This document shows positions 26,490-62,478 of a stretch of 64,000 bases of DNA, in pieces. Within the stretch, counting starts at the first letter, position 1; every line of letters begins with the position of its first letter. This DNA comes from Phycisphaerae bacterium (GTDB lineage: Bacteria; Planctomycetota; Phycisphaerae; UBA1845). Location: assembly GCA_024102815.1 (NCBI GenBank), contig JAGFJJ010000078.1, forward strand, positions 1 to 64,000, read 5' to 3'. Under the pieces are notes generated by a model. The model saw only the letters and a list, made by a program, of their open reading frames with translations, was not told the DNA's origin and did no database searches. The translations under genes and the position numbers were made by a program.

Positions 26490-26744
26490 TCAGACCTCGT
26501 CTTGGGACCGCTGGTGAATCCAGGTGTGGGCCATGTCCGCCACCTTGGCCACCAGGGGCAGGTCATCTCGCCCGAACGAGTCCGATTGCTTCCAGTCGTC
26601 GCCGTCCTTGTAGAGGCGTCGAATCTGGACGTTGTGGCGAAAGCCGCCACCCTCGGTCTCGTTTCCCCAGATGACCGCCTTGATCCGCCCAAGCCGGACC
26701 TCGTGCACCGGTCGATTCTTTTCGCTTTGATTGTCCTTTGCCAT
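26490..26744 (-). CDS. Small conserved plasmid protein, paralogue of the gene at 61885
   Basis: The 84-residue protein is clearly related to the 76-residue one at 61885: both start MA, have PVHE-x-R-(L/I)-G-(R/K)-I, a Trp after it, and SF-x-(R/P)-DDL-x-x-VAK-(V/L)-AD-(M/L)-AHTW near the end. The start at 26744 is chosen over 26750 because AAGGAA lies 8 bases upstream and because it matches the start of the paralogue. The fold looks like a small mixed alpha/beta domain. I do not know a function. The leader contains an inverted repeat that covers the ribosome-binding site. Confidence 0.7.
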   Translation of the reverse strand: MAKDNQSEKNRPVHEVRLGRIKAVIWGNETEGGGFRHNVQIRRLYKDGDDWKQSDSFGRDDLPLVAKVADMAHTWIHQRSQDEV

Positions 26745-26752
26745 ATCCATGG

Positions 26753-26884
26753 TTCCTTTCAATAGCATTCGGTTTCAATCGAGACCAGATCGAAAACACG
26801 GCGAAGGAATTCTCGTGTCCTCCGTCGCATCGGTTCCACTTGGCTCCGCAACAGCGCTACTCGACGTTCCTGGCACGGAGCCAA
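26753..26884 (-). promoter_or_regulatory. Leader with inverted repeats covering the ribosome-binding site (leader class, copy 1, weakest)
   Basis: In plus-strand terms, TTCCTT (26753-26758, the complement of the Shine-Dalgarno sequence) pairs with AAGGAA (26804-26809); inside, GTTT..TCGA (26772-26782) pairs with TCGAAAAC (26790-26797). Further upstream, TTGGCTCCG (26840-26848) pairs with CGGAGCCAA (26876-26884). The arrangement is the same as at 37001, 53727, 60430 and 61802, but the stem is imperfect. Confidence 0.4.
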
Positions 26885-36498: not shown

Positions 36499-36635
36499 AC
36501 TGTCACGGACCCTTCATCCACCGCCAAGAGGACGTTCGCGTGACGGATCTTGTACGCCGCCGCCCTGCCCACCCGAACCAACTGCTTCAACCCATCCCGC
36601 TCCTCGGCCTCCAGCCGAACGATCCACCTTTTCAT
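36495..36635 (-). pseudogene. N-terminal fragment of an IS630-type transposase
   Basis: An excellent AAGGAGG precedes the ATG at 36635. The 46 residues begin MKRWIVRLEAEERDGLKQLV and continue through GRAAAYKIRHANVLLAVDEG, which is the first helical part of the helix-turn-helix in IS630-family transposases (VRLTxEERxxLxxLVxxG, then AxxIRHAxxLLxAD). It then stops where it meets the ISKra4 remnant, whose stop overlaps its own. The rest of the transposase is absent. Confidence 0.65.
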
Positions 36636-37000
36636 GCCGATCCTCCTTGAGACAGGGCATCCATGCCCTTACAAGGATCGGCTATCCAACATCTTTACCC
36701 GCACATTCGAGTGAATCGGACCACTAGGTTCTGTCCGGCAAGCATCACACGTTTCGCAAACGCCGCCGTTCCCCTCCGCATTGACACGCCCTGTCTTGCT
36801 TTGCCCGCATTCGCTCCGAGCCGGTCGGCTACCCGCCTGCCCGCCGGACAGGCGGGCAAGCGGCCGGTCGAAACGGCATGCGTCGCGCCAGGCGGCGTGA
36901 AATCCCCGCGCGATGAATCCAACGAACTTGCATCTGTTCGCAGGGCCGCCTGTCACTCCTCCTGCTGATCGCTTCGACCTGTAGCCGTCCGTCTCTCCGC
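36636..37000. other. Long leader with paired inverted repeats upstream of the methylase-helicase gene
   Basis: No gene is supported. CCCGCCTG (36832-36839) pairs with CAGGCGGG (36849-36856). CAGGCGGC (36889-36896) pairs with GCCGCCTG (36945-36952) and encloses CGAAC/GTTCG (36923-36927/36936-36940). These branched repeats precede the ribosome-site hairpin at 37001, as at 60306 and 61711. Confidence 0.4.
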
Positions 37001-37077
37001 CCGTCCCCGCGAGGGGTGATCGGGTTTCCCCAGCGCCCGGCGAAGGAAACCCGATCACCCTTTTTTCGCGAGGACGG
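37001..37077 (+). promoter_or_regulatory. Terminator-like hairpin in the leader, with the ribosome-binding site in the outer stem (leader class, copy 2)
   Basis: A perfect 16-bp stem, GGGTGATCGGGTTTCC (37014-37029) with its complement at 37045-37060, is followed by six Ts and so looks like an intrinsic terminator 20 bases before a start codon. Around it, CCGTCCCCGCGA (37001-37012) pairs at 11 of 12 positions with 37066-37077, which includes the Shine-Dalgarno GAGGA at 37070-37074. The gene should therefore stay off unless the structure is opened. Confidence 0.6.
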
Positions 37078-37080
37078 ACC

Positions 37081-40000: not shown

Positions 40001-41484
40001 AACACGAGACGCGGCAGTTCCAGGACGGAACGAAACGCTTGGCCATCGTATCCGGTGCCGGAGCTACGGGAATCAGTTTGCACGCCGACGTGGATGCGAA
40101 GAACCACGAGCGGCGGGTGTTCTACGCGTTTCAGCTTTCGTGGTCGGCGGATCAGCAGATGCAGGTGTTCGGCAGGGTGCATCGCTCGCATCAGGTGTCG
40201 GCCCCGATCATCCGGCTGGTGTTACTCGATCTTGCCGGCCAGAAGCGGCAGGTAAACGCCGTATCGAAGCGACTGGCAGCGTTGGGAGCACTGACCAAAG
40301 GCGAGCGACAATCCCTTGGCGGAGTGTTGTTCCGCCCGGAAGATGTTACCGACCAGTACGGTGCCGCGGCACTGGCACGCCTTTACGGCGAGATCACCCA
40401 CAACCGGCACAAGGACGCGGGACTCGGCGTGCGTGAGCTTGAGCGGATGGGCGTGCTCGACAAGGACAAGACGGCGGTACGCGAGAGCCTGATACGCAAG
40501 GTCAATCACTTTCTGAATCGCATCATGGTGCTTCCGGTTGAAAAGCAGAATGCGGTTTTCGAGCTTTTCTATGAGCGGTACGTCGAGGCCGTCGATGCCG
40601 CCAAACGTCGCGGAGCGTTCGACTTTGGGGTGTCGGAGATTAGGGCGAGGAACCTGCGAAGCGCCTGTCCCCCGCAGACCCTTCACACAGACGAGGCGTC
40701 GGGGGCACGGACGGTCCTGCACGAACTGCAAGGCGAGATCGACGTTGAGCGGCACGAGTTCGATACCGCCCGGTGCCGGTTCGCCGTCGAGGGCTTCTAC
40801 CGCAACATCCGAGGCGGGACGGTCTACGCCGTGTCCGCCCATCACGACGATTCGCTACGACAGGCGGTGCTAATGGGCGTCAAGCGAACCACTCGGATTG
40901 TCGTTGAACGGCACGAGCTTGCCGCGAAGTACACCAAGGTCGGGAACGACGCCGCACGCGAATGGTGGGACGCGGCCTATGCCAGCACCCCCGCCACGGC
41001 CACGGAGAAGTTCTACGTCCTGAGCGGTGCCATCATCCCGATCTACGACAAGATCATGGGCGGGCAGGGCATCGACAACACCAAAGTCGCCCGGGCGATC
41101 CTTGAAAATGGCGAAGCCCTTGTCGGCTTCAACTTGAGTCCCAAGGATGTTGGGCCGGTCAAGCAGAGGCTCGGTATCGGCAATCCGCTGGCCGATTCGA
41201 CCGCCGAGGAGATTCTGGAATTGGTCGACGCCGGTGGAGTGATCGAACTGGACAACGGATGGCGGATCACGCTTTCGGTCGTATCCAGCGAGAGCGTCGT
41301 CGAGCTTGTCCTGAACGGCGTCATCGGAAACAAGGACGAGATCCGCGGTTACGGATTCATCGACGAGACCATCCACTACAAACGCCGCTGGTTCGCCCGC
41401 ATCGACGAGGCGGACGCGGTGCTGGCCCGATTGCTAGCCCGCCGGAAACCCGTACGGGACATCACGTTCGACCAGGCCGCGTAA
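37081..41484 (+). CDS. Giant methyltransferase-helicase fusion, DarB/strawberry-notch-like antirestriction protein
   Basis: The 1467-residue protein has three parts. Residues about 150-430 are an N6-adenine methylase: LEPSAGTGNLAVLARLAGAE (cofactor motif) and DAIVMNPPFSATGG (catalytic motif). Residues about 480-740 are the first helicase domain: WNGDGTGIGKGREIYAF (Walker A), VIAFDESHLMKNA (motif II), FSATGATEV (motif III). Residues about 970-1100 are the strawberry-notch-type C-terminal helicase: IVSGAGATGISLHAD and QQMQVFGRVHRSHQ (motif VI). Such methylase-helicase fusions occur on plasmids, and the best known relative in plan is phage P1 DarB, which protects incoming DNA from type I restriction. 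The leader hairpin suggests control at DNA entry. Confidence 0.75.
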   Translation: MSAKQVIQAKPMRREQLTLFALFDAAATENPRTQALPAAGLANHRRLPTPPSSRPDLGEDPTTTALYGRRQDGGDLWAEGSPVQTLARRIAAVLHTEPATHIDNPRLDALTREIFGTAVGHARDAYDAAEGGMNLHIGEFAIDFRDGREAIERLLEVTQRMPRQSRRDERQVELQQFSTPPAEAFVVVAAAAIQPGMSVLEPSAGTGNLAVLARLAGAEVETNEIDPRRRELLTMQGFPVTAVDAERLHNLLDPDKTFDAIVMNPPFSATGGRVTGHNTKFGARHVEQALLRLKPGGRLVAVVGQGMALDRVGFREWWQMIEERFHVRANIGMDGNGYGKFGTSFGNQIVVIDNDGPTANEEDVITGSELSPQAAYELIRGLADEDIPAHIEHASRRTDRNGKPRSETQRTADRNSIGELVTNTMRPAAQIETGTVFSRYEVRKATVRGSEQHPANVVESTTMASVEPPDIIYRHHLPPELIVEGRVSDLQIEDTIYAGQATETMLLDGNRRGHWNGDGTGIGKGREIYAFIYDQFQQGRRKHVHVSASHQLVVDAERDRDAVGLPLPIIHQAKRKPTDVVTASQGVFFTTYTMLAGDFKQNRPRFKQLADWLGSDFDGVIAFDESHLMKNAASTPYGGKASTDAGTQRGNMGIELQRMFPNARVRYFSATGATEVRHMAAYERLGLWGPGAPFPDFPSFVLAMERGGVAAMEMLCRDLKAVGSYLARTISYGPSRNDDGTIVPDSAVEYEPLQHNMTPDERGQYDQIAELWSELLVAFEAAEETAGQQRNPNRYAQFYATQQRFFLQLMMAYELPDVIPAIERDLSEGRSVVVSLFNTNEAQTDRKVSRALADGLDLSELDATPREMIVQLVEKQFPIHQYQEVTDPKTGKVKSVRVEDENGNPEINRENVAKQAELLDRVADLDFPQNPIDTLVDHFGPENVAEITGRSHRFERGKYVRRKISGVGTKRLNEHETRQFQDGTKRLAIVSGAGATGISLHADVDAKNHERRVFYAFQLSWSADQQMQVFGRVHRSHQVSAPIIRLVLLDLAGQKRQVNAVSKRLAALGALTKGERQSLGGVLFRPEDVTDQYGAAALARLYGEITHNRHKDAGLGVRELERMGVLDKDKTAVRESLIRKVNHFLNRIMVLPVEKQNAVFELFYERYVEAVDAAKRRGAFDFGVSEIRARNLRSACPPQTLHTDEASGARTVLHELQGEIDVERHEFDTARCRFAVEGFYRNIRGGTVYAVSAHHDDSLRQAVLMGVKRTTRIVVERHELAAKYTKVGNDAAREWWDAAYASTPATATEKFYVLSGAIIPIYDKIMGGQGIDNTKVARAILENGEALVGFNLSPKDVGPVKQRLGIGNPLADSTAEEILELVDAGGVIELDNGWRITLSVVSSESVVELVLNGVIGNKDEIRGYGFIDETIHYKRRWFARIDEADAVLARLLARRKPVRDITFDQAA

Positions 41485-42132: not shown

Positions 42133-42498
42133 GGTGTGGAAACTGCACGATAACGCCGAGCGCCCGGGTGAAGTGTTTGGGGGCGCCCAACCGGTCAACG
42201 GGCCAAACCGATGGACCCCTTCGATGGATCACCTGAGCGACGTCGCCACGTTCAGTAATCTGGCGCCGTCTTGATCGGGCTCTGGGGCAGCATTTTTCGC
42301 GATTGCGAGGCCCAACCGGGGTGAAGCGTGACGCCGGAGTGTTTCGGTGTACGATGGAGCAACTCCAGGGCTGTGGTTACGAACGATCAATGGTGGCCGG
42401 AGCGTGAACTGCACGGCGGTCGTCACGGAGGTGTCCGAACATGTCCCGAAGGTGATGTGCCACATCATGGCGCGCGGGCATGGGCAACAGGTGATCGT
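42133..42498. other. Spacer before the Shango-like operon
   Basis: The open frame of the next gene extends back to 42328, but residues before the Met at 42499 have no protein character. Nothing else is supported here; the promoter of the three-gene operon should lie in this segment. Confidence 0.45.
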
Positions 42499-44781
42499 AT
42501 GGCCGAAACCATCCTCATCGTCCTAATCGCCATCGTAGCGGTTGTACTCCTGGGTGTCCGTGACAAGCTTTCGGCTCTGCTTGGCGCCGGGGACCGAACC
42601 GCACAGCGTCGGACCGCTAGTCGAGCGGATCGCATCGACTCCGATTGGCGCGTTATGGCAGCGCCGTCACACAAGTCTAAACCGAAATGGCTCGGTTATG
42701 GTGACGTGCTTCAAGTAAAGGGCTTTGAGATTGCGCACCCCTTGACGTACCTGTCGAGCCCCGGCGGTTCGGCAATTGACCCTTCGGAGATCGATCGGTC
42801 CCTGCCCATCGCGAGAGATTCAGAGGCAGACGATCTGCCGTATTGGCCTTGGTACGCCCGGATGAACTCGGCCCAGCGGCACATCTACCTTGACTGGTTG
42901 TCATCCGACCGCGCCAAGCTGCCCAACACCGATGGTTACCTGTTCGTTTATTACTACGGCTTGGAGCGGCGCGCGCTGGTTGATGACGCGGATCACAAGA
43001 CGGTGTTCGAGGAGGTGCAGCGGCTTCGCCAAGTCTACGAAGAATACGGCCCCAAGCGTGGTCGAAACAGTTTCATGAACTACAGCTCGGCGTTCCTGTG
43101 GTTTCTTGCGGCGTACAAACCTGACGAGATCAAGCAGAAGAGGGTCCAAAGGCTCGCGGAGTTGACGCGTGTATGGAACGAAGAGAAGCTCGCCGCGGCG
43201 CTGGCTTGGTGCGTTTCTCGAAAGCGACCCTTGCCTTCGTGGCTTGCGTTTGCCGTCGCTGAGCAATCACCGCAATCGCAGCGAAGCGTAGTCACCAAGC
43301 GAGTTGGCGACGAGTTCCGTGTGTTGTTCGCCAAACGGTACCAGGAGCAGTTCACCGAGGGACTGCCGCTACGGACCTCGAAGCGGGAGCGGCATATCTC
43401 CTACCGCCCCGCGAGCGCCGTGATCGATCACGCTTCGCTGGCGGTCCCGAATGCCCTTGGTATCCCCAGTCAATTCAAGCTGCTCTCTTCGATCTGGAAC
43501 GGTTGCATCGATGATTTGCGAAAGCTGAGTGCCGTAACCCGTGAGAAGACTGATGCTCCGCTCACGGCCAAAGCGTGGGAAGCGATGCCGCCCGAACTCC
43601 GCCGTTCGCTCGAACATCCCCAGAACAACGCCGTCTGCGATCTGATCGCAGAAAGTGCGGATGAGGACGGACACGTGTTCGTCCGGGCTGGTGAACTTGC
43701 TCGTGCGATGCAAGTTGAGAAAGGCGATCGCCTTACGATTGGCCAAAGTCGAGCGATTGCCGCTACGGTCGAGCACATCGGGTTCGCGTTGGAGCCCGAC
43801 CCGCGTCTGACCGGGAAGAGCTACAAAGCCGATTCGCTGATCGCCGCATTTCCACAGGCCTACGAGGGCGATCCCGACTACAAGCGTTACGGCGGGGCCG
43901 CTTGCATGATGCGACTCGGCCTGGCCGTGGCCGAAGCCGACGGGCATGTCGATGATGAGGAACTGCACCGCGTGCGGGATCAGATCGAGGACGGATTCGA
44001 ACTCAACGACCATGAGCGCCGGCGATTGGAGGCCTTGCAGACGCTGCTCATCAAGACCGGTTCGGACATCGCCGGCCTGGGCAAACGGCTGCAGGAGGTC
44101 GTAGCCGAGAGCGGCCGGAGGTCGGTCGGGAAGCTGCTGATCGGTGTTGCTGCCTGCGATGGTGTCATCACCAAGGGCGAATTGCGGGCGCTTCGCAAGT
44201 GTTTCCGGTCTCTCGGGCTGACATCCGAGGGGCTCGACGCGATGCTCCAGGAACTCGCCTCTGACCTAGCCGAAGCTCCCGTCAGCGTGACACCGGGACG
44301 GCCGCGCGAGGCCGGGGAACCCATCCCACTCACCCGAGCAGCGGATGCGGAGATCCAACTGGATCGTGAGGCTATCGCAAGAATCATGCATGAGACCCGG
44401 GATGTGAGTGCGCTGCTGGCGAAAGCGATGGATATTCCCACTGAAGTGCAATCCGACCATCTTGTTGCGGTGATGGATCCTCGGGTCGATAACGACGATG
44501 CGCCACGCATACCGACAACAGCCATCGATTCTCCCAATCCCTCAGCCACGTCCGCACAACTACCGCCCGCGCGGTTCGCGGCTTTCTATACGGAGCTTGT
44601 CACCAAGAAGCGCTGGACCCGGGAGGATGCCGCACAACTCGCGCGGCGTCATGGCCACATGCTGAGCGGGGCGATCGAATCGATCAACGAGTGGGCCTTC
44701 GATGAATTCGGCGCCCAACTCGTGTACGATGGTGAGGATGACGTGGAACTGGAGCTTGATCTGCTGGAAGGAAGTGGCTAA
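42499..44781 (+). CDS. sngA: SngA-like TerB-domain membrane protein of a Shango-type defence system
   Basis: From the ATG at 42499, the protein has 760 residues. It starts with a membrane helix, ETILIVLIAIVAVVLLGV, then a TerB N-terminal domain (LPYWPWYARMNSAQRHIYLDW and LFVYYYGLERRAL), a central TerB domain (MRLGLAVAEADGHVDDEELH, with the acidic DGHVDDEE motif, then NDHERRRLEAL), and a TerB C-terminal region (RWTREDAAQLARRHGHML to INEWAFDEFGAQLVYDGEDD). With the ATPase and helicase genes 3 bases apart behind it, the order equals the Shango system, whose SngA is a TerB-domain protein. The membrane helix would place the complex at the inner membrane. Confidence 0.75.
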   Translation: MAETILIVLIAIVAVVLLGVRDKLSALLGAGDRTAQRRTASRADRIDSDWRVMAAPSHKSKPKWLGYGDVLQVKGFEIAHPLTYLSSPGGSAIDPSEIDRSLPIARDSEADDLPYWPWYARMNSAQRHIYLDWLSSDRAKLPNTDGYLFVYYYGLERRALVDDADHKTVFEEVQRLRQVYEEYGPKRGRNSFMNYSSAFLWFLAAYKPDEIKQKRVQRLAELTRVWNEEKLAAALAWCVSRKRPLPSWLAFAVAEQSPQSQRSVVTKRVGDEFRVLFAKRYQEQFTEGLPLRTSKRERHISYRPASAVIDHASLAVPNALGIPSQFKLLSSIWNGCIDDLRKLSAVTREKTDAPLTAKAWEAMPPELRRSLEHPQNNAVCDLIAESADEDGHVFVRAGELARAMQVEKGDRLTIGQSRAIAATVEHIGFALEPDPRLTGKSYKADSLIAAFPQAYEGDPDYKRYGGAACMMRLGLAVAEADGHVDDEELHRVRDQIEDGFELNDHERRRLEALQTLLIKTGSDIAGLGKRLQEVVAESGRRSVGKLLIGVAACDGVITKGELRALRKCFRSLGLTSEGLDAMLQELASDLAEAPVSVTPGRPREAGEPIPLTRAADAEIQLDREAIARIMHETRDVSALLAKAMDIPTEVQSDHLVAVMDPRVDNDDAPRIPTTAIDSPNPSATSAQLPPARFAAFYTELVTKKRWTREDAAQLARRHGHMLSGAIESINEWAFDEFGAQLVYDGEDDVELELDLLEGSG

Positions 44782-44784
44782 GGC

Positions 44785-46137
44785 ATGCGTGCACGAATCA
44801 CGGGGCGCGAGCGGTCGGCGATTTTGAGTTCCCTTGCGGCAGGTGTCGTTCCCAGCATCGGGCTTCATCATATCCAGGTCGGTCGCAAGGACGAGGTGAA
44901 CGCGCTGCTCAGCGATCTCGCAAAGGTGGAGAATGACGCGGCGTTTATCCGATTCGTGGTCGGCCGGTTCGGCTCAGGAAAGACGTTCTTCCTGAACCTC
45001 GTCCACACAGTCGCATTGGAACGGAAACTCGTCGTCGCGAGCGCCGACATCACAACGCAGCGTCGCCTTCATGGCACCGGTGGACAGGCGCGAACTCTCT
45101 ATAGCGAGTTGATGCGGAACATCGCTTCGCGGAGCCGGCCCGAAGGCGGCGCGCTTCCCAACCTGATCGAACGGTGGGTATCCGATCTGGCTCACGAAGT
45201 ATCCTCCTCCGGCGGAACGGCCGAGGACGTTGGACGCCGTCTTCACGATGCGTGCAAACCGCTGCAAGAGCTGGTGAGCGGACACGATTTCGCGAAGGTC
45301 ATCGAGCAATACTACCGTGGATTCCTCGACCACAACGAAGCGCTGCAACAGGCCGCGATCCGCTGGCTCCGCGGAGAGTACACGACCAAGACCGAAGCCC
45401 GGCAGGATCTCGGTGTCCGAACGATCATTGACGACAGCTCCTTCTACGAATACCTGAAACTCATGGCGGGGTTCGTTCGCATCGCCGGATACGCCGGGCT
45501 GGTGGTTTGTATCGATGAACTCGTCGTGCTGTCCCATCGATTGAACAACAAGACGGCCCGGAACAACAACTACGAGGCGATTCTACGCATCCTAAACGAC
45601 TGCCTGCAGGGATCGGTGCAGGGACTCGGTTTCATTTTCGCGGCAACCGACGACTGTTTGATGGACAAGCGGCGCGGGCTATTCAGCTACGAGGCACTCG
45701 CCACCCGGCTGGCACCCAACCGGTTCGCATCGGATGAGGTCGTTGATTTCTCCGGCCCCGTGCTGTCGCTTGCCAGCCTGACGCCCGAGGATTGCTACGT
45801 ACTGTTGCACAACATCCGCCGGGTGCATGCGAAGGCGGACGACACCAACCATGCGCTGCCCGACGAGGCAATCGAGGCATTCCTCAAAGACTGCAACCAA
45901 CGGATGGGAGCGGCTTACTTCCTGACCCCGCGCGAGACGGTGAAGGATTTCGTTGGCCTGCTCAACGTGCTTGAGCAGAATGAACAAGCGGATTGGCGTA
46001 CGCTGCTCGGGGCTATCAAGACAACGGCGTCGGACGCGACCGATCCTTACGCGAGCGTCCCGGAGCAGGAGGATGGTCCGGACGACGAACCTGTTGCTAC
46101 GCGAGGTGATGACGACCTTGCCAGCTTCAAGCTCTAA
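44785..46137 (+). CDS. sngB: SngB-like ATPase (DUF2791/BrxD family) of a Shango-type system
   Basis: The 450-residue protein has Walker A in FVVGRFGSGKTFFLNLVH (about residues 59-76) and Walker B in AGLVVCIDELVVLS (about 236-249), then the sensor region GLGFIFAATDDCLMD. These are features of the DUF2791 ATPases, which include BrxD of BREX and SngB of Shango. It starts 3 bases after the TerB gene, so the two are surely co-transcribed. No BREX methylase or PglZ gene is present, which argues for Shango. Confidence 0.78.
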   Translation: MRARITGRERSAILSSLAAGVVPSIGLHHIQVGRKDEVNALLSDLAKVENDAAFIRFVVGRFGSGKTFFLNLVHTVALERKLVVASADITTQRRLHGTGGQARTLYSELMRNIASRSRPEGGALPNLIERWVSDLAHEVSSSGGTAEDVGRRLHDACKPLQELVSGHDFAKVIEQYYRGFLDHNEALQQAAIRWLRGEYTTKTEARQDLGVRTIIDDSSFYEYLKLMAGFVRIAGYAGLVVCIDELVVLSHRLNNKTARNNNYEAILRILNDCLQGSVQGLGFIFAATDDCLMDKRRGLFSYEALATRLAPNRFASDEVVDFSGPVLSLASLTPEDCYVLLHNIRRVHAKADDTNHALPDEAIEAFLKDCNQRMGAAYFLTPRETVKDFVGLLNVLEQNEQADWRTLLGAIKTTASDATDPYASVPEQEDGPDDEPVATRGDDDLASFKL

Positions 46138-46140
46138 GCG

Positions 46141-49071
46141 ATGACGGATACCAACGATTTTTCTCAACCGGCCTCACCTTCAAGCGACGTCTCCAGCGCG
46201 TTCGAACTGCTTGCTCGTGGCGTGCAGCGCCAGCTCTGGCGCATGGGCTGGACGGAGTTACGACCGATTCAGGTCCATGCGATTCGCGCGATAACGCAGT
46301 CCGATGCTGACGTGGTGATTGCAGCAGAAACCGCAAGTGGAAAAACCGAAGCGGCGTTCCTGCCGATCATTTCGAGGATATCCGACGAGCCGCCAAGCTC
46401 AGTCCGCGCACTGTATGTCGGCCCGCTTCGAGCGTTGATCAACGATCAGTTTCAGCGCATCGAGGATCTCTGTCAGTACGTGGACGTTCCGACCCATCGT
46501 TGGCACGGAGATGTCGGCGCCGCCGCCAAGTCCTCCCTACTCAAGAACCCGGCCGGCGTCCTTCTCATTACACCCGAGTCCATCGAATCGCTCTTCGTCA
46601 ATCGGTCGTCCCATTTGCCGCGCCTGTTCGGCGGATTGCGGTACGTGGTGATCGACGAGCTGCACTCCTTCCTCGACAGTGAACGGGGCATCCACTTGCA
46701 GAGCCTGTTGTGCCGGTTGCGGCGTGTCGTGGGTGCATCCGATGGATCGTTTCGCACGGTGGGATTGTCCGCCACGCTCGGCGAAATGATCGCCGCTCAG
46801 CGATACGTGAACCGGGACAAACCGAAGACCGTTGCGGTCATCCGCGACGACGCTGGCGGGAAAGAGCTCCGATATCGTCTGCATGCCTATGTCTCGGAGC
46901 CGTCCACTGAGCTGGCTGTCGCTGAGGATGCACGCGAAGACTCGGGCGAACTCGACGTGATGCGGCAAATCGCGGAAGACCTCGTGGAACATTGTCGCGG
47001 CTCCAGCAACCTGGTATTCGCCAATGCCAAAGGCGACATCGAAGTTTACGCCGACCTCTGCAACGAAATCACACGGCGCGATGCCCTGCCGGAATCCTTC
47101 CTCGTGCATCATGGTTCGCTTTCCCGTGAAATCCGGGAAGATACCGAGGCCGGAATGAAGGACGGCCATCGGCAGACCGCAATCTGTTCGAGTACGCTTG
47201 AGATGGGTATCGACATCGGCAGCGTTCGGACGGTCGGTCAGATTGGGGCAACCTGGTCGGTCTCGTCGCTGAAACAACGCCTCGGAAGAAGTGGGCGCAA
47301 AGATGACGATCCCCGGATCATGCGCGTATACATCGCTTGTCGCGACCCCGGATCCGATGGAAGTCTTCTTGATCGGCTGCACCTCGAATTGATACAGGCG
47401 ATTGCCGCCACGGAGCTGCTGCTGAGCGGATGGGTCGAACCGCCGACACCCGCCACATGCGACCTGAGCACGCTGACCCAACAAATCATCAGTGTCATCG
47501 CCGAGACCGGGGGGACGACCGCTTCCGAACTCCACGCCCGGCTCATCCGTCTCGGCGCCTTCCGGGACATCGAGTTGAGTTTGTTCAAGGCATTGTTGCA
47601 GTGTCTTGGCCGGGCTGACATCGCGGAGCAGATCGCAACCGGTGAGTTGATCCTCGGCCTGGAAGGGGAAAGAATCCGCGCCGGACGCGACTTCTATGCA
47701 GCGTTTCAAACGCCGGCGGAGTTCACCGTGACCACCGGACAGCGCTTGATCGGAACGGTGCCGATTCTCGGGTCACCGAGCGTGGATGACCACATTCTGC
47801 TGGGTGGCCGGCGCTGGAAGGTGGTGAGCGTCGACTATGACCGATCGGAGATTCTCGTTGAGCCGGCGCGCGGCAAGAAGCGCCCGTTGTTTATGGGCGG
47901 GGTCGGCGCGGTGCATGGCCGGATCCGTGAGACTATGCGAGATGTCTTGCACTCTGGCGATCGATACGTTTACCTCAACTCGACGGCATCCGACTTGCTG
48001 GCCCGCGCGCGCCGCACGGCGGAAGAAGCCGGCATGCTCACCGATCCCGTGGTCGCGATCGACGACCGAAAGTCACTTTGGTTCAATTGGGCTGGAACGA
48101 ACACGCAGAGCACGATGGCGGCGTTGCTGGGTGCGATCGGGGTTGACGTGATCGACCGCGGTGTGGGTTTGGAGGTCGCCCTACCCAAATCCGAGGTCGG
48201 AACCGCCCTTGCGAAAGTACTCTCGGCCAAGCCCGATCCCGAATCTGTTGCTGAGCACGTCCTCCCTAAGCTCAGGAGGAAGTATGACGAGTTCCTGTCC
48301 GACAAGCTGCTCGATACCGCAATCATACGGGACGTCTTGAATCTCGACGAAGCCGTACGACTCTGCCGCAATCTGGCCAATCCGATCGAGCACCGCAGCG
48401 AAAAAAGCGCCACGAACATCAGCACCCGGCCGACCGGCGTTCGGGCTCCGCGCATCATATCCGGACGCCCCATGAAGGCCCTTCGCTCCTACCTGGTCTT
48501 CGACTTCGAGACTACCGGGTTGGACTGTCATCGCGATCGGATCATCCAGGTCGGGCTCTGCCGGGTAGCGGAAGGTAAAGTCGTGGATCGCACAGGTTGG
48601 CTCGTGCGCCAGGATGTCCCGATCCGCCCCGAGGCGCAGCGAAAGCATGGCATCACGGTTGAAGCTCTGCGGAAACACGGGACGACGCCCGAGGCGAGCC
48701 TGACCCGCCTTCTCGCCGCAATGCGGGAGGCGCCGGCGTGCATGGGACATAACATCCACATGTTCGACCTTCGATTCCTGCGAGCGGAATGCCGGCGCGC
48801 CGGCGTACGGGAGCCCAACTCATCCGCGTTCATCGACACCGCTGCGCTCTTCAAAGGATGGCGTTTGGGCGCTCCGTATGACCACCGGCACGAATCACCG
48901 CGTGACCATGCGATTCGAGTTCTGTCGACGAGAGTCAAGGACCTCAAGTACTCGATCGCCGCCTGCCTAGAGGCCCTTGGGGTCGAGGCTGACAAGTCGG
49001 GGATGCACGATGCAAGCGAGGATGCCTATCTGACTTACTTGATCTTCGAGGCACTGCAAGGTCGGCTGTAG
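46141..49071 (+). CDS. sngC: SngC-like Lhr-type helicase fused to a DnaQ-type exonuclease
   Basis: Residues 1 to about 770 are a DEAD/DEAH helicase of the Lhr type: Q-motif region MGWTELRPIQVHAI, Walker A AAETASGKTEAAF, motif II VVIDELHSFLD, motif III GLSATLGE and motif VI LKQRLGRSGRKDDD, with the winged-helix and Lhr core after it. Residues about 780-976 are a DEDDh 3'-5' exonuclease: YLVFDFETTGLDCHRD (Asp, Glu), MGHNIHMFDLRFL (Asp) and HDASEDAYLTYLIF (His, Asp), all four motifs intact. Position as third gene matches SngC. The exonuclease fusion would add DNA degradation to unwinding. Confidence 0.78.
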   Translation: MTDTNDFSQPASPSSDVSSAFELLARGVQRQLWRMGWTELRPIQVHAIRAITQSDADVVIAAETASGKTEAAFLPIISRISDEPPSSVRALYVGPLRALINDQFQRIEDLCQYVDVPTHRWHGDVGAAAKSSLLKNPAGVLLITPESIESLFVNRSSHLPRLFGGLRYVVIDELHSFLDSERGIHLQSLLCRLRRVVGASDGSFRTVGLSATLGEMIAAQRYVNRDKPKTVAVIRDDAGGKELRYRLHAYVSEPSTELAVAEDAREDSGELDVMRQIAEDLVEHCRGSSNLVFANAKGDIEVYADLCNEITRRDALPESFLVHHGSLSREIREDTEAGMKDGHRQTAICSSTLEMGIDIGSVRTVGQIGATWSVSSLKQRLGRSGRKDDDPRIMRVYIACRDPGSDGSLLDRLHLELIQAIAATELLLSGWVEPPTPATCDLSTLTQQIISVIAETGGTTASELHARLIRLGAFRDIELSLFKALLQCLGRADIAEQIATGELILGLEGERIRAGRDFYAAFQTPAEFTVTTGQRLIGTVPILGSPSVDDHILLGGRRWKVVSVDYDRSEILVEPARGKKRPLFMGGVGAVHGRIRETMRDVLHSGDRYVYLNSTASDLLARARRTAEEAGMLTDPVVAIDDRKSLWFNWAGTNTQSTMAALLGAIGVDVIDRGVGLEVALPKSEVGTALAKVLSAKPDPESVAEHVLPKLRRKYDEFLSDKLLDTAIIRDVLNLDEAVRLCRNLANPIEHRSEKSATNISTRPTGVRAPRIISGRPMKALRSYLVFDFETTGLDCHRDRIIQVGLCRVAEGKVVDRTGWLVRQDVPIRPEAQRKHGITVEALRKHGTTPEASLTRLLAAMREAPACMGHNIHMFDLRFLRAECRRAGVREPNSSAFIDTAALFKGWRLGAPYDHRHESPRDHAIRVLSTRVKDLKYSIAACLEALGVEADKSGMHDASEDAYLTYLIFEALQGRL

Positions 49072-53726: not shown

Positions 53727-53826
53727 ACCTCCTTTCGTTCACCGGCCACCTCCGGACGCGCAACGCCGCGGGCACGCAGTTGCAACTGCTTGCTTCCCGT
53801 CTTGCGGTTGCGCATTCCATGGAGGT
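53727..53826 (-). promoter_or_regulatory. Nested inverted repeat covering the ribosome-binding site (leader class, copy 3)
   Basis: In plus-strand terms, ACCTCC (53727-53732, complement of the Shine-Dalgarno) pairs with GGAGGT (53821-53826); inside, GCGCAAC (53758-53764) pairs with GTTGCGC (53807-53813); in the middle is the perfect palindrome GCAGTTGCAACTGC (53776-53789). On the minus strand this is a leader hairpin that hides the ribosome site of the plasmid operon. Confidence 0.5.
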
Positions 53827-54715: not shown

Positions 54716-55111
54716 GGGTGTGTCTCCGTCGCCCCGCTTCAAGCGGCAAGGCATCGGATAGAACGTCGGGATTGACGATTCTCTTGGTGAGAGAACGCTT
54801 TACTCCGACGAGCCTCCGTCGATCCGGACAAGCCAGTCTCCTGGCATCCGGCTCTACGGGTCGCACGGCGCGGCGGTTGGTAATCCGCCACCTTTCGGCA
54901 TGCTGGTGAGGCCGCCTACTCCGGTTGCCGGCGTGTCACACGCCAAACTTCGACGATGAGAGCCATCTCACACGGATCGGCGTATCGTACCGACCGGGGC
55001 GGTACAAGACCGAAAAGTTCATGTAGGTTGAACGACGTACGTGGTTGCCCGGACGCGGCGCGTTCGAGCGGGCCGCAAAGAACGGCAACTACGCGTTAGT
55101 TCGGGGCCCGG
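54716..55111. other. Spacer, no gene seen
   Basis: Nothing with a ribosome-binding site or protein character was found between the hairpin cluster and the small peptide gene at 55112. Confidence 0.4.
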
Positions 55112-56715: not shown

Positions 56716-58455
56716 ATGCACATAAGCCGAGTTGTTGTACGGAATTTCCGGAATCTCGCCACAATTGACGTTTCGCTGCGCAAGGGCGTTACCTGCATCA
56801 TCGGCGAGAACAACATTGGAAAAACGAATCTACTGCACGCACTCCGGTTGGTATTGGATGGTGACTTGCCTGGCTACGCGCGGCAGTTGACACTAGCGGA
56901 TGTGAACGAACCCGCCGCGGCCGAACATCCGTTTCACGTCGTAGTCGCAGTTGAGTTTAGCGACTTTGAAGATGATGTTGATGCGTCGGCGTTCGCAGCT
57001 TTTTTTAAGATACGGGAGAATTTGGCACGTCTCACGTACCGCTTTCGTCCGAATCCGACCGCCCGGGATGCACTTGAAGCTGAGGAGCGTGAGGCCGAAG
57101 ACCTTACTATTGATGACTATCGCTGGGAGATCACAGGAGGCGGGAATGAGGACCCGTCAAACATCGATTGGCATGAGGACTTTGGCCGCACCATCCGTAT
57201 CTCGGACTTGAACGACTACTTGGTAGTCTTCCTGCACGCGCTACGCGATGTCGTCGCCGATCTCAGGTCCTCTCGGCAGTCGCCACTTCGCCGAATCATT
57301 CGCTCGCTCAAGTTGCCGCGCGACGAACAGGCGCGTCTTGTCGAAGTCCTCTCGGACGCAAACACGGAGATTGCATCGACCGACACCATCAAGCGCATCG
57401 GCGAATTGCTTGACGAGCGTCTCTCAGCCACCGCCGGCGAGGCATTCAAGCTGTCGGTCGCCCTCGGTATGGGCAGTCCCACGTTTTCCGCCATCGAACG
57501 AGCACTTACACTATTGCTGTCGAGCGACAGCCACTCTCGATTCGAACCGGGGCAGAACGGGCTGGGGCTGAACAACGTTCTCTATGTCGCGCTCCTACTC
57601 CAATACTTCGAGAGCCGACTTGAGGCTGACGAATGCGCCGGCGCAGTGATTCTATTTGAAGAGCCGGAATCGCACCTTCACCCCCAGCTTCAGCGAGTCC
57701 TGTTGGAGACCCTTAAGGCGCATTCCGTCCAGGTAATCGTTACCACCCACAGCACGCACGTTACTGCTGCCACTGACATCGACGACTATGTAGTCCTTTC
57801 GCTAGGCCCGCATGGTGTTGTCAACGCCCACGTACCGCGCTTGGCCAATCACTTGAGCCGTGCAGATCGCGCCGACCTCAACCGATATCTGGACGCCACC
57901 AAATCGACGCTGCTCTTCGCCCGGCGAGTGATCTTGGTGGAGGGGCCAGCGGAGCTTTTCCTCGTCCCGACCATTGCGAAGCACGTATGCGGCATTGATC
58001 TCGATCGGCACGGTGTCGCAGTCGTGCCGATATTCGGGACCTACTTCGCCCCGTTCGCTAAGTTATTCGGCCCCGATGGCGTTCGTAAGCGCTGCGCGAT
58101 CGTTACCGATCGCGATGATGACCCGGCAGAGGAGGGGGAGGCCCCTCGGAATCTGGGGAAATACGAGAACGAGTTCGTGAAGGTTTTCGCATGTGACACG
58201 ACTCTCGAAAGAGAATTGGCAATCGCAGGAATATCTGAGCCGCTGCGCCTCACCGCGGCGGAGTTGCGTACCCGAAGGCTTAGGCAAGCTCTGGACACAG
58301 ACCCAGTCGACTTTAACGCTCTCGGAAAGCGTATCCTGAAAGCGGCGGAGTTGAGATCCAAGGGACGGTTCGCCCAAGTGCTGTCTAAGCACATGCAAGC
58401 GGCAACCGATGCGCCGGAGTACCTGAAAGACGCCATCGCTTGGGTGACGGAATGA
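56716..58455 (+). CDS. gajA: GajA 2: OLD-family nuclease of Gabija system 2
   Basis: The 579-residue protein has the GajA layout. The ATPase domain has Walker A IIGENNIGKTNLLHALRLVL (about residues 30-49), Walker B VILFEEPESHLHPQLQ (about 312-327) and the switch His in VIVTTHSTHVTAAT. The TOPRIM domain has VILVEGPAELFLVPTIA and AIVTDRDDDPAEE, with the Glu and Asp residues of the active site. It is only distantly similar to the GajA at 32015. The stop overlaps gajB by 16 bases. Confidence 0.88.
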   Translation: MHISRVVVRNFRNLATIDVSLRKGVTCIIGENNIGKTNLLHALRLVLDGDLPGYARQLTLADVNEPAAAEHPFHVVVAVEFSDFEDDVDASAFAAFFKIRENLARLTYRFRPNPTARDALEAEEREAEDLTIDDYRWEITGGGNEDPSNIDWHEDFGRTIRISDLNDYLVVFLHALRDVVADLRSSRQSPLRRIIRSLKLPRDEQARLVEVLSDANTEIASTDTIKRIGELLDERLSATAGEAFKLSVALGMGSPTFSAIERALTLLLSSDSHSRFEPGQNGLGLNNVLYVALLLQYFESRLEADECAGAVILFEEPESHLHPQLQRVLLETLKAHSVQVIVTTHSTHVTAATDIDDYVVLSLGPHGVVNAHVPRLANHLSRADRADLNRYLDATKSTLLFARRVILVEGPAELFLVPTIAKHVCGIDLDRHGVAVVPIFGTYFAPFAKLFGPDGVRKRCAIVTDRDDDPAEEGEAPRNLGKYENEFVKVFACDTTLERELAIAGISEPLRLTAAELRTRRLRQALDTDPVDFNALGKRILKAAELRSKGRFAQVLSKHMQAATDAPEYLKDAIAWVTE

Positions 58456-60200
58456 AGCTGACTGACGCGCAGCGCGCAGCCGTTGATGAAGAATCTCGAC
58501 ACGTCTTGGTTGTAGCTTGTCCGGGGAGTGGTAAAACGCGAACCATTGTAGCCCGCCTCCTGCGTGCGATCGAACACGTCCGCTGTACCCCTCGCCGCGT
58601 AGCGTGCATCACCTATACCAACGCTGCTGCCCACGAGATCGAGGCCAGACTCAAAAAGCTGATCAGTGCCGACGATGCCGACTACTGCGATGTCGGCACC
58701 ATTCATTCGTTTTGCCTGCAAGCAGTGCTCCGGCATCACCACCGCCTGCTCGGCGGATACCAGTCCGGACTGGCGGTCGCGGCACCCGAGTCCCCCGAGT
58801 TTGCCGAAGCCGCGCAGCAGGCTCTCGCGGATACGATGCGCGGGCATGGCAACACTCAGGAGTTTGAGCGCGTTCGCCGCGATGCCGCAGGAGAGCCGCT
58901 GATCCCGACAGACGTGGGACTAACAGACGAATGTGTACGTCGCTTCTGGGAACTGCTGGCCGAGTGGCAATTCGTCGATTTTCCGAGCATTACCTACCTG
59001 ACCTTTCGGCTGTTTGAACTGCATTCACACCTAGCCAAAAGCGTGTCCTCCCGCTACCGAGAAATCCTTATCGATGAAATGCAGGACACAGACGCGCTGC
59101 AAGTGCAGGTGCTGCGCCGCCTTGCCGACGTTCGTCGGAGCCGCTTCTTTCTGGTCGGCGATCACTTTCAGTCCATCCAGGGATTTGCCGGGGCCCAGCC
59201 CGAGCGCATGTTCGAGCTTGCCGCGCACCTGGACGCTCGTACCGACTTCCCGCTCCATGAAAACTGGCGCAGCAGTTCAAGTATCGTTGCACTCGGTGAA
59301 GCCCTTTGCCCGCGCGACCCAACAATGGTCGCCGTAGGCCCGGATGCAGATTACCACAGTCGGCCTCGCATCATGACTGCTGCTTCTGGTGTCGACGCCG
59401 TCGTTGGTGGGTTCATCCCGCTCCTAGCCCGCGAGGGTATTGCGGTGACGGATGCAGCCGTGCTTGCACCCGCATGGTATATGTTGTTTCCCATCGCCCG
59501 CGAACTCCGCCGTTTAGGGGTGCCTGTCTCCGGACCGGGCGCGCGCCCTTACCGGCGAGCGCGGCTCTTCACCGGTTTGATTGAGTACCTGTGTGCCTAT
59601 ATTGACACACCCGCACCGCAACTTTTGCACCGTGTTCAGGTTCAGCTATTCCACACGGTTCAGCAAACGGAAGGTCTAACCCGCTTTGACATTTGGGATC
59701 GCCTGGGCAGACTCTCCGTCATGCGTCTAGTCATTTGCGGTCGTGAATTGCGAAGCCGTAACGCCTCGGCAATTGCGTGGCTGGCGGCGGCGGCACCCGC
59801 CTTCACAGGGATCCTTCGGGAGCACGGCCTCATTAAGGAGGCGGGGGCAACCGCCATCGAGACATCGGCTTCTGAGATCATCGCGGACATCCGCCGCAAC
59901 CGCGATTTCGACGCCGACGACTTGACCGTGGACGATATCGGCGATTTTGCCCATCCTGATGGGAGTTTGCGCCTGCTCACTCTCCATTCCGCCAAAGGAC
60001 GTGAATTCGAAGCAGTGTGCATTATCGAGCTTCAGGACAGTCAGTTTCCCCATCCGCGCGGAGATATTGAAGAATCACGTCGCGTTCTTTACGTCGGAAT
60101 TACACGCCCGCGTAAGGTGCTACTTCTGTGCCATCGGCGCGGCATAACGTTCACTCGGTATCTTTCAGAATCGCGCGTAGTTGCAGCTCTGAACGAATGA
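58440..60200 (+). CDS. gajB: GajB 2: UvrD-like helicase of Gabija system 2
   Basis: The 586-residue superfamily 1 helicase has all the motifs: Walker A VVACPGSGKTRTIVARLL near the N-terminus, VACITYTNAAAHEIEARL (Ia), ILIDEMQDTDALQ (II), LVGDHFQSIQGFAGAQ (III), LHENWRSSSS (IV), LTLHSAKGREFEAV (V) and VLYVGITRPRKVLLL (VI). It overlaps gajA by 16 bases. It is much longer than GajB 1 and near the usual size. Together with GajA it should form a DNA-cutting Gabija complex. Confidence 0.88.
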   Translation: MGDGMKLTDAQRAAVDEESRHVLVVACPGSGKTRTIVARLLRAIEHVRCTPRRVACITYTNAAAHEIEARLKKLISADDADYCDVGTIHSFCLQAVLRHHHRLLGGYQSGLAVAAPESPEFAEAAQQALADTMRGHGNTQEFERVRRDAAGEPLIPTDVGLTDECVRRFWELLAEWQFVDFPSITYLTFRLFELHSHLAKSVSSRYREILIDEMQDTDALQVQVLRRLADVRRSRFFLVGDHFQSIQGFAGAQPERMFELAAHLDARTDFPLHENWRSSSSIVALGEALCPRDPTMVAVGPDADYHSRPRIMTAASGVDAVVGGFIPLLAREGIAVTDAAVLAPAWYMLFPIARELRRLGVPVSGPGARPYRRARLFTGLIEYLCAYIDTPAPQLLHRVQVQLFHTVQQTEGLTRFDIWDRLGRLSVMRLVICGRELRSRNASAIAWLAAAAPAFTGILREHGLIKEAGATAIETSASEIIADIRRNRDFDADDLTVDDIGDFAHPDGSLRLLTLHSAKGREFEAVCIIELQDSQFPHPRGDIEESRRVLYVGITRPRKVLLLCHRRGITFTRYLSESRVVAALNE

Positions 60201-60305
60201 GTGTTGCGCGCATGGCCTACTCACGTCCCGGCTTCTCCGCTGTCTGTTCGCTCTCCGGGCAGTGAATCCCGTTGTTTTGCCACCGGCGACATCGCCGTCG
60301 CGCTT

Positions 60306-60408
60306 CCGTCCTTCGGCCGGACGGGTGGCCGGGCAACGCCCGCGCCCTCGCCGGTCGGCGAGTCGGCGACAAGTCGCCTGCACGGGCCTTGCAATCTCCG
60401 GCCACCCG
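60306..60408 (+). promoter_or_regulatory. Branched inverted repeats upstream of ardC
   Basis: CGGGTGGCCGG (60322-60332) pairs with CCGGCCACCCG (60398-60408), a perfect 11-bp stem. It encloses CTCGCC-GGTC-GGCGAG (60347-60362) and GGCGAC/GTCGCC (60365-60370/60373-60378). Just before it, CCGTCC (60306-60311) pairs with GGACGG (60319-60324). The result is a cruciform-like element directly upstream of the leader hairpin at 60430. Confidence 0.5.
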
Positions 60409-60429
60409 ACGCGCCGCCGGCTCGTCGCC

Positions 60430-60508
60430 TTGGTTCCTCCGAAAGGGTTTTTCGTTCGCCAACCGGCGGGCGAACGAACGAAAAACCCTTTCTTGAAGGA
60501 GGAACCAA
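60430..60508 (+). promoter_or_regulatory. Long hairpin covering the ribosome-binding site of ardC (leader class, copy 4)
   Basis: TTGGTTCCTCC (60430-60440) pairs perfectly with GGAGGAACCAA (60498-60508), which holds the Shine-Dalgarno GGAGG (60498-60502). Directly inside, GAAAGGGTTTTTCGTT (60441-60456) pairs with 60477-60492. The total is 27 base pairs ending 3 bases before the ATG. This is the clearest member of the leader class. Confidence 0.65.
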
Positions 60509-60510
60509 AG

Positions 60511-61377
60511 ATGGCACAACAAATCGAATCCACGAACCGAGCAGCGGAGAAACGGCGTCAGGCGAAGAGCCTCATCGACGGAGCGTTGAACGACCTTGCA
60601 GGCGCCCTCGAACAGGGCAAGAGTCAAACACTCGTCGCCTACCTCGCAACGATAGCCAGATTCCACCGCTACAGCTTCGGAAACATCATGCTCATCGCAT
60701 CCCAACGACCGGACGCGACCCATGTGGCCGGCTACCGCAAATGGCAGCAACTCGGGCGACAGGTAAAGCACGGCGAAAAAGGCATCCTGATCTTCGCGCC
60801 GATGTTCCTCAAGAACCGTGCCGACGAGTCACCACCGGAGACTTCCACCCCTGACGAGCCCGACAAACTTCTCCGCTTTCGTGTCGTCCACGTCTTCGAT
60901 GTGTCGCAGACCGAAGGCGAAGCGCTCCCCGAGCATGCCACCGTCAACGGCGACCCAGCCGGATTCACCGATAAACTGAAGAGATTCGCCGCCGATTCCG
61001 GTATCGTCGTCGAGTATTCCGCCCACATCGGTTCCGCACACGGCTATTCCTGTGGTGGTGGGATCGTCCTGCGCGACGACCTATCACCGGCCGAGACGTT
61101 CTCTACGTTGGCACATGAACTGGCCCACGAGTTCCTGCACCACGGCGAAGGCGCCGTTCGCGGCTCGAAAACGGTTCGCGAAACCGAAGCCGAAGCGGTA
61201 GCGTTTGTCGTGTCCCATGCCATCGGCCTGGACACCAACACCGCGTCATCCGATTACATCCAGCTCTACGCGGGTGACAAGGACACGCTGTCCCAGTCCC
61301 TCGACCGCATCCAGAAAACGGCCTCGAAAATCCTCGCCGCGATCTCCGACGACGAAGACGCCACGGCCGACGTGTAG
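60511..61377 (+). CDS. ardC: ArdC-like antirestriction protein
   Basis: The 288-residue protein has the ArdC N-terminal single-stranded-DNA-binding domain (YSFGNIMLIASQRPDATHVA, GYRKWQQLGRQVKHGEKGI) and a C-terminal zinc metalloprotease-like domain with HELAHEFLHH, and Glu residues in RETEAEAVAFVVSHAIGL. ArdC proteins are made early during plasmid transfer and protect the incoming DNA from restriction. The start at 60511 is fixed by GGAGG and the family N-terminus. The leader hairpin covers the ribosome site. Confidence 0.88.
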   Translation: MAQQIESTNRAAEKRRQAKSLIDGALNDLAGALEQGKSQTLVAYLATIARFHRYSFGNIMLIASQRPDATHVAGYRKWQQLGRQVKHGEKGILIFAPMFLKNRADESPPETSTPDEPDKLLRFRVVHVFDVSQTEGEALPEHATVNGDPAGFTDKLKRFAADSGIVVEYSAHIGSAHGYSCGGGIVLRDDLSPAETFSTLAHELAHEFLHHGEGAVRGSKTVRETEAEAVAFVVSHAIGLDTNTASSDYIQLYAGDKDTLSQSLDRIQKTASKILAAISDDEDATADV

Positions 61378-61389
61378 ACCGTTCCACCG

Positions 61390-61409
61390 ACGACGGCTCA
61401 CGCCGTCGT
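61390..61409. terminator. Hairpin after ardC, probable terminator
   Basis: ACGACGGC (61390-61397) pairs with GCCGTCGT (61402-61409) around a 4-base loop, 12 bases after the ardC stop. Only two Ts follow, so strength is uncertain. Confidence 0.5.
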
Positions 61410-61801
61410 TAGTCTCATCGCGGGCGCATTGTCTCCTGGCTTCCTTCTCCTGTTACGCTTCCACGGGCACCCGGCCGCCCTGCACACCGGACTATTCGGC
61501 ATTTCGCTGTTCGATGTCGTGTCCCCGCATACCGCTCGCTCCCGGCGCCAGTCCGTACCGGGTCCTGCTCGAAGTTCCCTCGTGCCGCAGTACGAGGCAC
61601 GGAAACGTCTTCCACGTGCCTTTCTCACCTCCAATCGGCCCGCGGTATGCCCGATTCGCATGCTTCGCAGTTTGTACGGCCATGCACGCCCCGTCCGGCG
61701 AATTGAGTTGTGCCGCCGGCAACGCTCACGCCACGGACAAGCCCGTGTCATTCGCTCTGCACTCCGGCGGCAAGGCTCAATTTGATTCGCCGTGACGAGG
61801 C
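61410..61801. other. Long leader of the small conserved gene, with paired inverted repeats
   Basis: No gene is supported. CGTGCC...GGCACG (around 61580-61600) is a hairpin. TGCCGCCGG (61711-61719) pairs with CCGGCGGCA (61764-61772) and encloses CACGG/CCGTG (61732-61736/61743-61747). The layout is that of the region before ardC, with no sequence similarity that I can see. Confidence 0.4.
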
Positions 61802-61883
61802 TTTGTTTCTCCGTTTCGGTTTCACGTTCACCAGAGCAAGCTTTGGCAAATGAACGTGAAACCTCAACAAAAGGAGAAACAAA
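61802..61883 (+). promoter_or_regulatory. Long hairpin covering the ribosome-binding site (leader class, copy 5)
   Basis: TTTGTTTCTCC (61802-61812) pairs perfectly with GGAGAAACAAA (61873-61883), which contains the Shine-Dalgarno AAGGAG (61871-61876) in part. Inside, GGTTTCACGTTCA (61818-61830) pairs perfectly with TGAACGTGAAACC (61851-61863). The 24 base pairs end 1 base before the ATG. Confidence 0.6.
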
Positions 61884-61884
61884 C

Positions 61885-62115
61885 ATGGCCAACAACAAAC
61901 CCGTACACGAAGCGCGAATCGGCAAAATCCGAGCAGCCGTTTGGGAAAACAAGGGCGAGAAAGGCGCGTGGTACAACGTCACCCTCACCCGCTCCTACCT
62001 CGATGGCAAGGAGTGGAAAGACACTTCGAGTTTCCGCCCCGACGACCTGCTGGCCGTCGCCAAGCTCGCGGACCTGGCCCACACGTGGTGCCTCGAACAA
62101 CGAAACGCTGAATAG
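61885..62115 (+). CDS. Small conserved plasmid protein, paralogue of the gene at 26490
   Basis: The 76-residue protein begins MANNKPVHEARIGKIRAAVW and ends with SFRPDDLLAVAKLADLAHTW, close to the protein at 26490-26744 throughout. The pattern of strand, strand, strand, helix suggests a small nucleic-acid-binding or protein-binding domain; no function is known to me. It lies between ardC and a DUF2958 gene on the same strand. Confidence 0.75.
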   Translation: MANNKPVHEARIGKIRAAVWENKGEKGAWYNVTLTRSYLDGKEWKDTSSFRPDDLLAVAKLADLAHTWCLEQRNAE

Positions 62116-62166: not shown

Positions 62167-62478
62167 ATGAAACTACTGATCGACGAAATCCGTCATCGAC
62201 TACCAACCATCTACGCCACGCAGAACGACCCGGATCCCATCATCCAGGCGAGGTTGTTCACCCCATGGACCAACTGGACCTGGTACGTCACCGAATTCGA
62301 TGGGGATGACCTGCTCTTTGGTATAGTCGAGGGCTTCGAAACCGAGTGGGGCTACTCATCGCTCGCCGAGCTTGAAGGCATCCGAGGACCGTGCGGGCTT
62401 CGCATCGAACGCGACCAGGATTTTGACCCGACGCCGCTCAGCGCGGTGCCATCGATTCGCCGCCTCGTCACCGCATGA
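62167..62478 (+). CDS. DUF2958 family plasmid protein
   Basis: AGGAGGAG precedes the ATG. The 103-residue protein fits DUF2958: LLIDEIRHRLPTIYATQNDP, ARLFTPWTNWTWYVTEFDGD, LLFGIVEGFETEWGYSSLAE and GLRIERDQDFDPTPLS. These are typical of this family of plasmid and integrative-element proteins, with a metal-enzyme-like Asp/Glu pattern but unknown function. It follows the ardC module on the same strand. Confidence 0.85.
   Translation: MKLLIDEIRHRLPTIYATQNDPDPIIQARLFTPWTNWTWYVTEFDGDDLLFGIVEGFETEWGYSSLAELEGIRGPCGLRIERDQDFDPTPLSAVPSIRRLVTA

Follow-up and report, generated by a model that had tools for sequence, protein, structure and literature searches.

A putative two-module leader that encloses the Shine-Dalgarno sequence of ardC and other genes of mobile elements

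The locus and its mobile element

The stretch of DNA analysed here (the window; 64 000 nucleotides) corresponds to positions 1-64000 of a 137 kb contig. Directly to its right, at 68.7-83 kb (68680-83000) of the contig, lie genes for a MOBP relaxase with DUF3363, a coupling protein and VirB4, VirB9, VirB10 and VirB11, all on the plus strand, and integrases and a ParAB pair are also found on the contig. Because the relaxase and type IV secretion system (T4SS) genes adjoin the window, the element is conjugative or integrative-conjugative, and it carries a defence island. Two complete Gabija-type pairs (GajA OLD-like and GajB UvrD-like; 30946-33634, minus strand, and 56716-60200, plus strand) and a Shango-type operon, SngABC (a TerB-domain protein, a BrxC/D-like ATPase and a helicase with an exonuclease domain; 42328-49071, plus strand), were recognized in the window with PADLOC models. 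The genes ardC, S (small and conserved) and SNO (for an SNO-type helicase) are all located on the plus strand, to the left of the relaxase and T4SS genes. The features discussed below, including two leaders claimed earlier that we do not accept as members, are as follows.

26753-26809, minus: claimed leader of the S paralogue (z -0.2)
36884-36969, plus: module A of the SNO leader, CGCGCC-AGGCGGC...GCCGCCT-GTCACTC (27.8 bits with covariance model R1; outside the R1 training set)
37001-37077, plus: hairpin burying the Shine-Dalgarno (SD) sequence of the SNO/DarB-like gene (z -6.8)
37081-41484, plus: SNO-type helicase with a methyltransferase domain, DarB-like
53727-53826, minus: claimed plasmid-operon leader (z -4.3; a stem is present and hides the SD of no identified gene)
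60306-60408, plus: branched inverted repeat 5' of the ardC hairpin (z -3.2)
60430-60508, plus: hairpin burying the SD of ardC (folding, shuffles)
60511-61377, plus: ardC coding sequence, ArdcN and Peptidase_M78
61727-61764, plus: module A of the S leader, CACGCC-ACGG-ACAAGC-CCGT-GTCATTC (30.9 bits with R1; in its training alignment, A4)
61802-61883, plus: hairpin burying the SD of S (z -7.5; the apical part contains ATGA)
61885-62115, plus: gene S, 76 amino acids, predicted beta4-alpha fold
62167-62478, plus: DUF2958 gene, likely downstream in the S operon, without a hairpin of its own

The S protein matched no Pfam or NCBIfam family. Its identification as a PC4 or PUR protein was considered and dropped: AlphaFold predicts the beta4-alpha fold at high confidence, yet no significant structural match was obtained. 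Small proteins of the S type (61885-62115 and 26490-26726 in the window) occur in several copies per genome.

Hairpins enclosing the Shine-Dalgarno sequence

The sequence-only reading of this DNA had claimed that five leaders, those of ardC, S, SNO, a plasmid operon and a paralogue of S, share one plan in which a long inverted repeat buries the SD. All five were folded as RNA and compared with dinucleotide shuffles (200 each), and the opposite strand was folded as DNA. The common plan stands for ardC, S and SNO, with z-scores of -7.9, -7.5 and -6.8, respectively. Their opposite strands fold equally convincingly as DNA (-7.0, -6.2 and -5.8). In these three leaders an outer stem of around 11 bp contains the SD, a bulge of several nucleotides lies in the 3' arm just before it, the inner stem is mostly perfect Watson-Crick, and the 3' side of the loop reads GYGA (ATGA in S). 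The ardC hairpin comprises 29 Watson-Crick pairs without a mismatch and a single 5-nt bulge on the 3' arm (60493-60497), and none of the 200 shuffles was as good. Its 11-bp outer stem (TTGGTTCCTCC/GGAGGAACCAA, 60430-60440/60498-60508) holds the SD, GGAGG (60498-60502); the inner stem pairs 60441-60458 with 60475-60492, and the loop contains GGCGAA. The SNO hairpin has a 16-bp perfect inner stem, a bulge on the 3' side and an apical GGCGAAGG.

The remaining two claimed leaders did not hold. That of the S paralogue was rejected, as 74 of 200 shuffles fold as well. In the plasmid operon the folding excess is weak, the large stem leaves out the SD of the ATG at 53721, and the start of the operon's first conserved protein lies further downstream. 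A homologue of the 95-amino-acid protein of this operon (58% identity, at locus L074) does carry the element. Further observations concern the neighbourhood of this operon: positions 54753-54856 (minus strand) match a group II intron domain (RF00029, 45.2 bits), followed on the 3' side by a long, GC-rich and apparently structured stretch that includes the claimed leader; no reverse transcriptase was seen nearby.

Equally good stems might have arisen by chance before other genes of the window. A loose scan of all open reading frames for SD-covering hairpins, based on minimum free energy, separated real from shuffled sequence poorly and gave way to a score in which only Watson-Crick pairs count, so that G-U and A-C are on the same footing. 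Within the window, ardC and SNO alone have a hairpin that scores at least 36 with an SD and a start codon behind it; the S hairpin scores 39 once it is allowed to run into the ATG. Rfam searches, at the gathering level on the window and at the E-value level on the leaders, returned only chance hairpin families for the leaders.

Conservation of the hairpin among relatives

Three sources supplied homologues of ArdC: genomes of the phylum, a set of named genomes (80 loci, for the most part of Planctomycetota and Acidobacteriota) and viral contigs. Many of these loci are metagenome-assembled, and start codons were picked by SD and homology. Among the first 73 ardC leaders, 22 beat all 1460 shuffles, and the SD lies inside the hairpin in every one of the 22. 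With rules that were partly developed on data later counted, and with clade members that are not independent of one another, a hairpin scoring at least 30 was found in 51 of 204 non-redundant ardC leaders, as against 1 of 180 to 201 shuffled controls. It is missing from around three-quarters of the ardC leaders sampled, and none of the 70 leaders from viral contigs has it. The position of the hairpin is strict: within the 112 nt before the ardC start, all 43 hairpins scoring at least 34 end between -3 and +10 nt from the start codon, none ends elsewhere, and the SD is within the stem in all 43. The arms are of unrelated sequence between clades, with the pairing kept.

A comparison that is independent of the data on which the hairpin rules were developed is offered by the SNO leader of the window and its homologue at locus L377. 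Both stems carry double compensatory changes between the two: CCGTCC/GGACGG has become CGGTCC/GGACCG, and ATCGGG/CCCGAT has become ATGGGG/CCCCAT. Selection for the fold, which the sequence-only reading had proposed, is thus strongly supported, by the perfect pairing of unrelated sequences in relatives and by the compensatory changes between the SNO leader and L377.

In 1.33 Mb of related loci, 77 hairpins score at least 36, compared with 12 in shuffles. Twenty-eight of the 77 precede an SD and a start codon, mostly of ardC, with a few others that include S genes and the SNO gene of the window. On plasmid pK2D_1 (CP036351), the hairpin stands before an 80-amino-acid zinc-ribbon gene adjoining a primase-like gene. 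The recurrence of ardC and SNO behind such hairpins supports the link to antirestriction and entry genes that had been suggested from the window. In front of ardC at four other acidobacterial loci (L116, L117, L120 and L133) stands another conserved palindrome, GGCATGTA..TACATGCC.

A second conserved module upstream

Comparison of upstream regions revealed a small motif, module A, of the form YGYGCC-[variable stem]-GKCAY, around 50 nt upstream of the hairpin (module B). Of 44 leaders, 27 have it at a distance of 38-68 nt, as against 0 of 1320 shuffles. Twenty-eight module A sequences were aligned, and five of the pairs have changed on both sides; complementarity had been a criterion of sequence choice for some of the pairs, though not for the outer one. 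Double-change cells number 40, compared with 10.4 in shuffled alignments (0 of 500 shuffles), and the signal is lost when the partner is shifted. The outer pair alternates between G-C and A-T, such that CGCGCC goes with GKCAC and CACGCC with GTCAT.

In the host genome of 5.1 Mb, the leaders of S and SNO are the only matches to covariance model R1. A search of 397 genomes of the class, which is only partly independent since the sample overlaps that used to collect the ArdC loci, gave 27 matches. As we read them, 18 are followed by the hairpin and an ArdC start, one (L377) by the hairpin and an SNO homologue, one is a fragment near ArdC, and seven have no clear start. Several loci (L386, L387, L396, L366:11394, L090:5750 and L073:304) show module A and then a conserved hairpin, several of them with 'TTATACGGCAG', without a clear start codon, and one frame among them resembles the N-terminus of the SNO protein; these loci may hold SNO genes in decay, or module A may serve another purpose in them.

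Branched inverted repeats had been noted further upstream of four of the five claimed leaders. Those at 61711-61772 and 36832-36952 were confirmed, with module A inside each, the repeat at 60306-60408 is not recognized by R1, and that at 26840-26884 has a z-score of around -2. The repeat upstream of ardC carries CGCGCC (60341) and TGCAC (60379) around 50 nt before the hairpin, and is possibly a diverged module A. Kissing of the apical GTGA with a TCAC of module A is suggestive in some leaders (TCATT/AATGA in S of the window) and inconsistent overall, and was set aside as a lead.

These comparisons show, with high confidence, a conserved cis element made up of the two modules. We take it for a cis-regulatory element that conjugative elements and plasmids of Planctomycetota and Acidobacteriota carry for the most part before ardC and also before S and SNO-type genes, and that very likely represents a previously undescribed genetic switch of mobile elements.

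Which strand folds

The mismatches in the hairpins bear on whether RNA or single-stranded DNA is the folded molecule. Over 1650 aligned columns of the 51 hairpins, 10 are G-U and 52 are A-C, counts that presuppose strong pairing, as the score decided which hairpins were included. When only isolated mismatches in different contexts are counted, G-U stands at 4 and A-C at 20 (p 0.0015), whereas terminators of the same loci have 23 G-U versus 18 A-C. For 18 acidobacterial leaders, the consensus fold reaches z -11.7 on the antisense strand and only z -7.7 on the sense strand. The scarcity of G-U, the more frequent A-C and the better antisense fold argue against a plain sense-RNA helix and mildly for the template strand. 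As proof of the folded strand, the asymmetry is weakened by composition: the right arm of the hairpin is poor in T (5%) and rich in A (40%), and few G occur in the unpaired stretch leading up to the start codon, so that C-A would be preferred to T-G even if nothing folded. The mismatch counts could also be skewed by selection for an mRNA leader low in G.

These strand preferences, as well as genes typical of entry functions (ardC and SNO/methyltransferase), would suit a single-strand promoter with a built-in lock, similar in function to Frpo. The template strand would fold on entering the cell and polymerase would start within or just beyond the hairpin. Transcripts born on single-stranded DNA would then be without the left arm and open to translation, and those born on double-stranded DNA would stay locked. 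We searched for sigma-70 promoters of consensus type in linear sequence and found no promoter-like site on either strand at 60100-60515, 61378-61890 or 36500-37085. The leaders of relatives have a higher G+C content and fewer -10-like sites than control genes. The missing promoter 5' of the three leaders and the -10-poor leaders elsewhere favour this explanation; against it, no -35/-10 was seen by eye inside the hairpins, the A-C excess is seen alike in the two phylum groups (G-U versus A-C, 8 versus 33 in Acidobacteria and 2 versus 19 in the others) despite their differing gene orientation, and a promoter would have no reason to enclose the SD.

The orientation of ardC relative to the relaxase gene points both ways. 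The relaxase gene is typically in the lagging region (Samuel et al., PMC11541004); if this applies here, with oriT beside the relaxase gene, the transferred strand would be the template in the window, where ardC, S and SNO are co-oriented with the MOBP relaxase, and the coding strand in the Planctomycetota set, where ardC is divergent from a MOBF relaxase in 10 of 10 pairs checked (on the assumption that oriT lies between them). Co-orientation of ardC and relaxase is also found at L265, L269 and L234 (some Acidobacteria), and other cases vary. An Frpo-like single-strand promoter, one of two models in the sequence-only reading, is thus not established, given that no sigma-70 -35/-10 sites were found and that orientation varies between elements, and we regard it as rather unlikely. 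In the strict form of a single-strand-triggered switch, the entering template strand would fold into both modules and start transcripts inside the hairpin that escape the lock; antirestriction genes would be active on incoming single-stranded DNA alone and silent once the element is established. This form seems to us improbable.

A second explanation draws on the same antisense preference. In FinP/traJ of F, two stem-loops cover the leader, and one of the two includes the SD. By control of this kind, a small RNA from the opposite strand would cover the leader and its two hairpins, and its pairing would govern access to the SD. Two hairpins on the antisense strand, the covered SD and the better antisense fold agree with such a scheme, but inspection by eye brought up neither a promoter nor a terminator conserved on that strand, and we consider it very unlikely.

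Proposed mechanism

We lean towards a translational lock, judged from the position of the SD inside the stem. The other model of the sequence-only reading, an RNA switch, is plausible for the same reason, the SD being always inside. Module A is a small hairpin with the conserved flanks YGYGCC and GKCAY. Module B, around 50 nt after it, is a long and nearly perfect hairpin of free sequence, with the SD in its 3' arm and a loop ending in the conserved GYGA. In an ordinary transcript begun upstream, the left arm would sequester the SD and translation would be off; a signal received by module A or by the loop would open or bypass the hairpin and allow expression. Such a signal would most likely come when the element enters a new cell. 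A T-poor, A-rich right arm is expected where a leader must be open in use. Counted against the lock are a perfect helix of 28 bp, which exceeds the need, mismatches that are not RNA-like, the better antisense fold, and the fact that most ardC leaders are free of the hairpin.

Long, nearly perfect helices of arbitrary sequence are typical substrates of RNase III. The hairpin might accordingly be an mRNA processing site, at which cleavage of the long helix frees the SD or stabilizes the message. The anatomy of the hairpin fits such substrates, and cleavage would free the SD; module A, the conserved GYGA loop and the scarcity of G-U would be left unexplained, and we give this possibility little credence.

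If the proposed lock is real, mobile elements that silence their antirestriction genes by means of a portable hairpin switch, free in sequence, would be present in many bacteria of soil and groundwater. For the question of how antirestriction genes are switched on at entry outside Enterobacteria, the leaders supply a defined element and a search model.

Comparison with known systems

We found no description of this element in the open-access literature. It resembles leaders and riboswitches that sequester the SD in having a sensor-like conserved module followed by an SD-hiding stem; the SD is paired in a conserved stem, and compensatory changes are found among relatives. It differs from them in the absence of a known aptamer, in its unusually long and perfect stem of free sequence, in its few G-U pairs and in its restriction to genes of mobile elements. 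With FinP/traJ it shares the two stem-loops over the leader with the SD in one, whereas no antisense gene was identified here.

The Frpo/ssi single-strand promoters of F-type plasmids (PMC11541004) are likewise hairpins 5' of anti-defence genes on conjugative elements, and the present leaders could also act on entering single-stranded DNA. Unlike in Frpo, however, no -35/-10 sites were found in them, their hairpin encloses the SD, they have an additional module A and arms of free sequence, and their orientation to the relaxase gene is inconsistent. Frpo is near in context and not in anatomy.

STAXI is also near in context. This conserved structured motif, found beside antirestriction, SSB and integrase genes, consists of two or three tandem pseudoknots with frequent UUCG loops, and its authors raised the question of whether it acts as RNA or as single-stranded DNA (Weinberg 2010, PMC2864571). 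The STAXI covariance model of Rfam has no match in the window or in the leaders. The leaders described here are, like STAXI, a conserved structure at antirestriction genes for which the same question arises, and their mixed signature of RNA and single-stranded DNA bears on whether motifs of this sort act as the one or the other.
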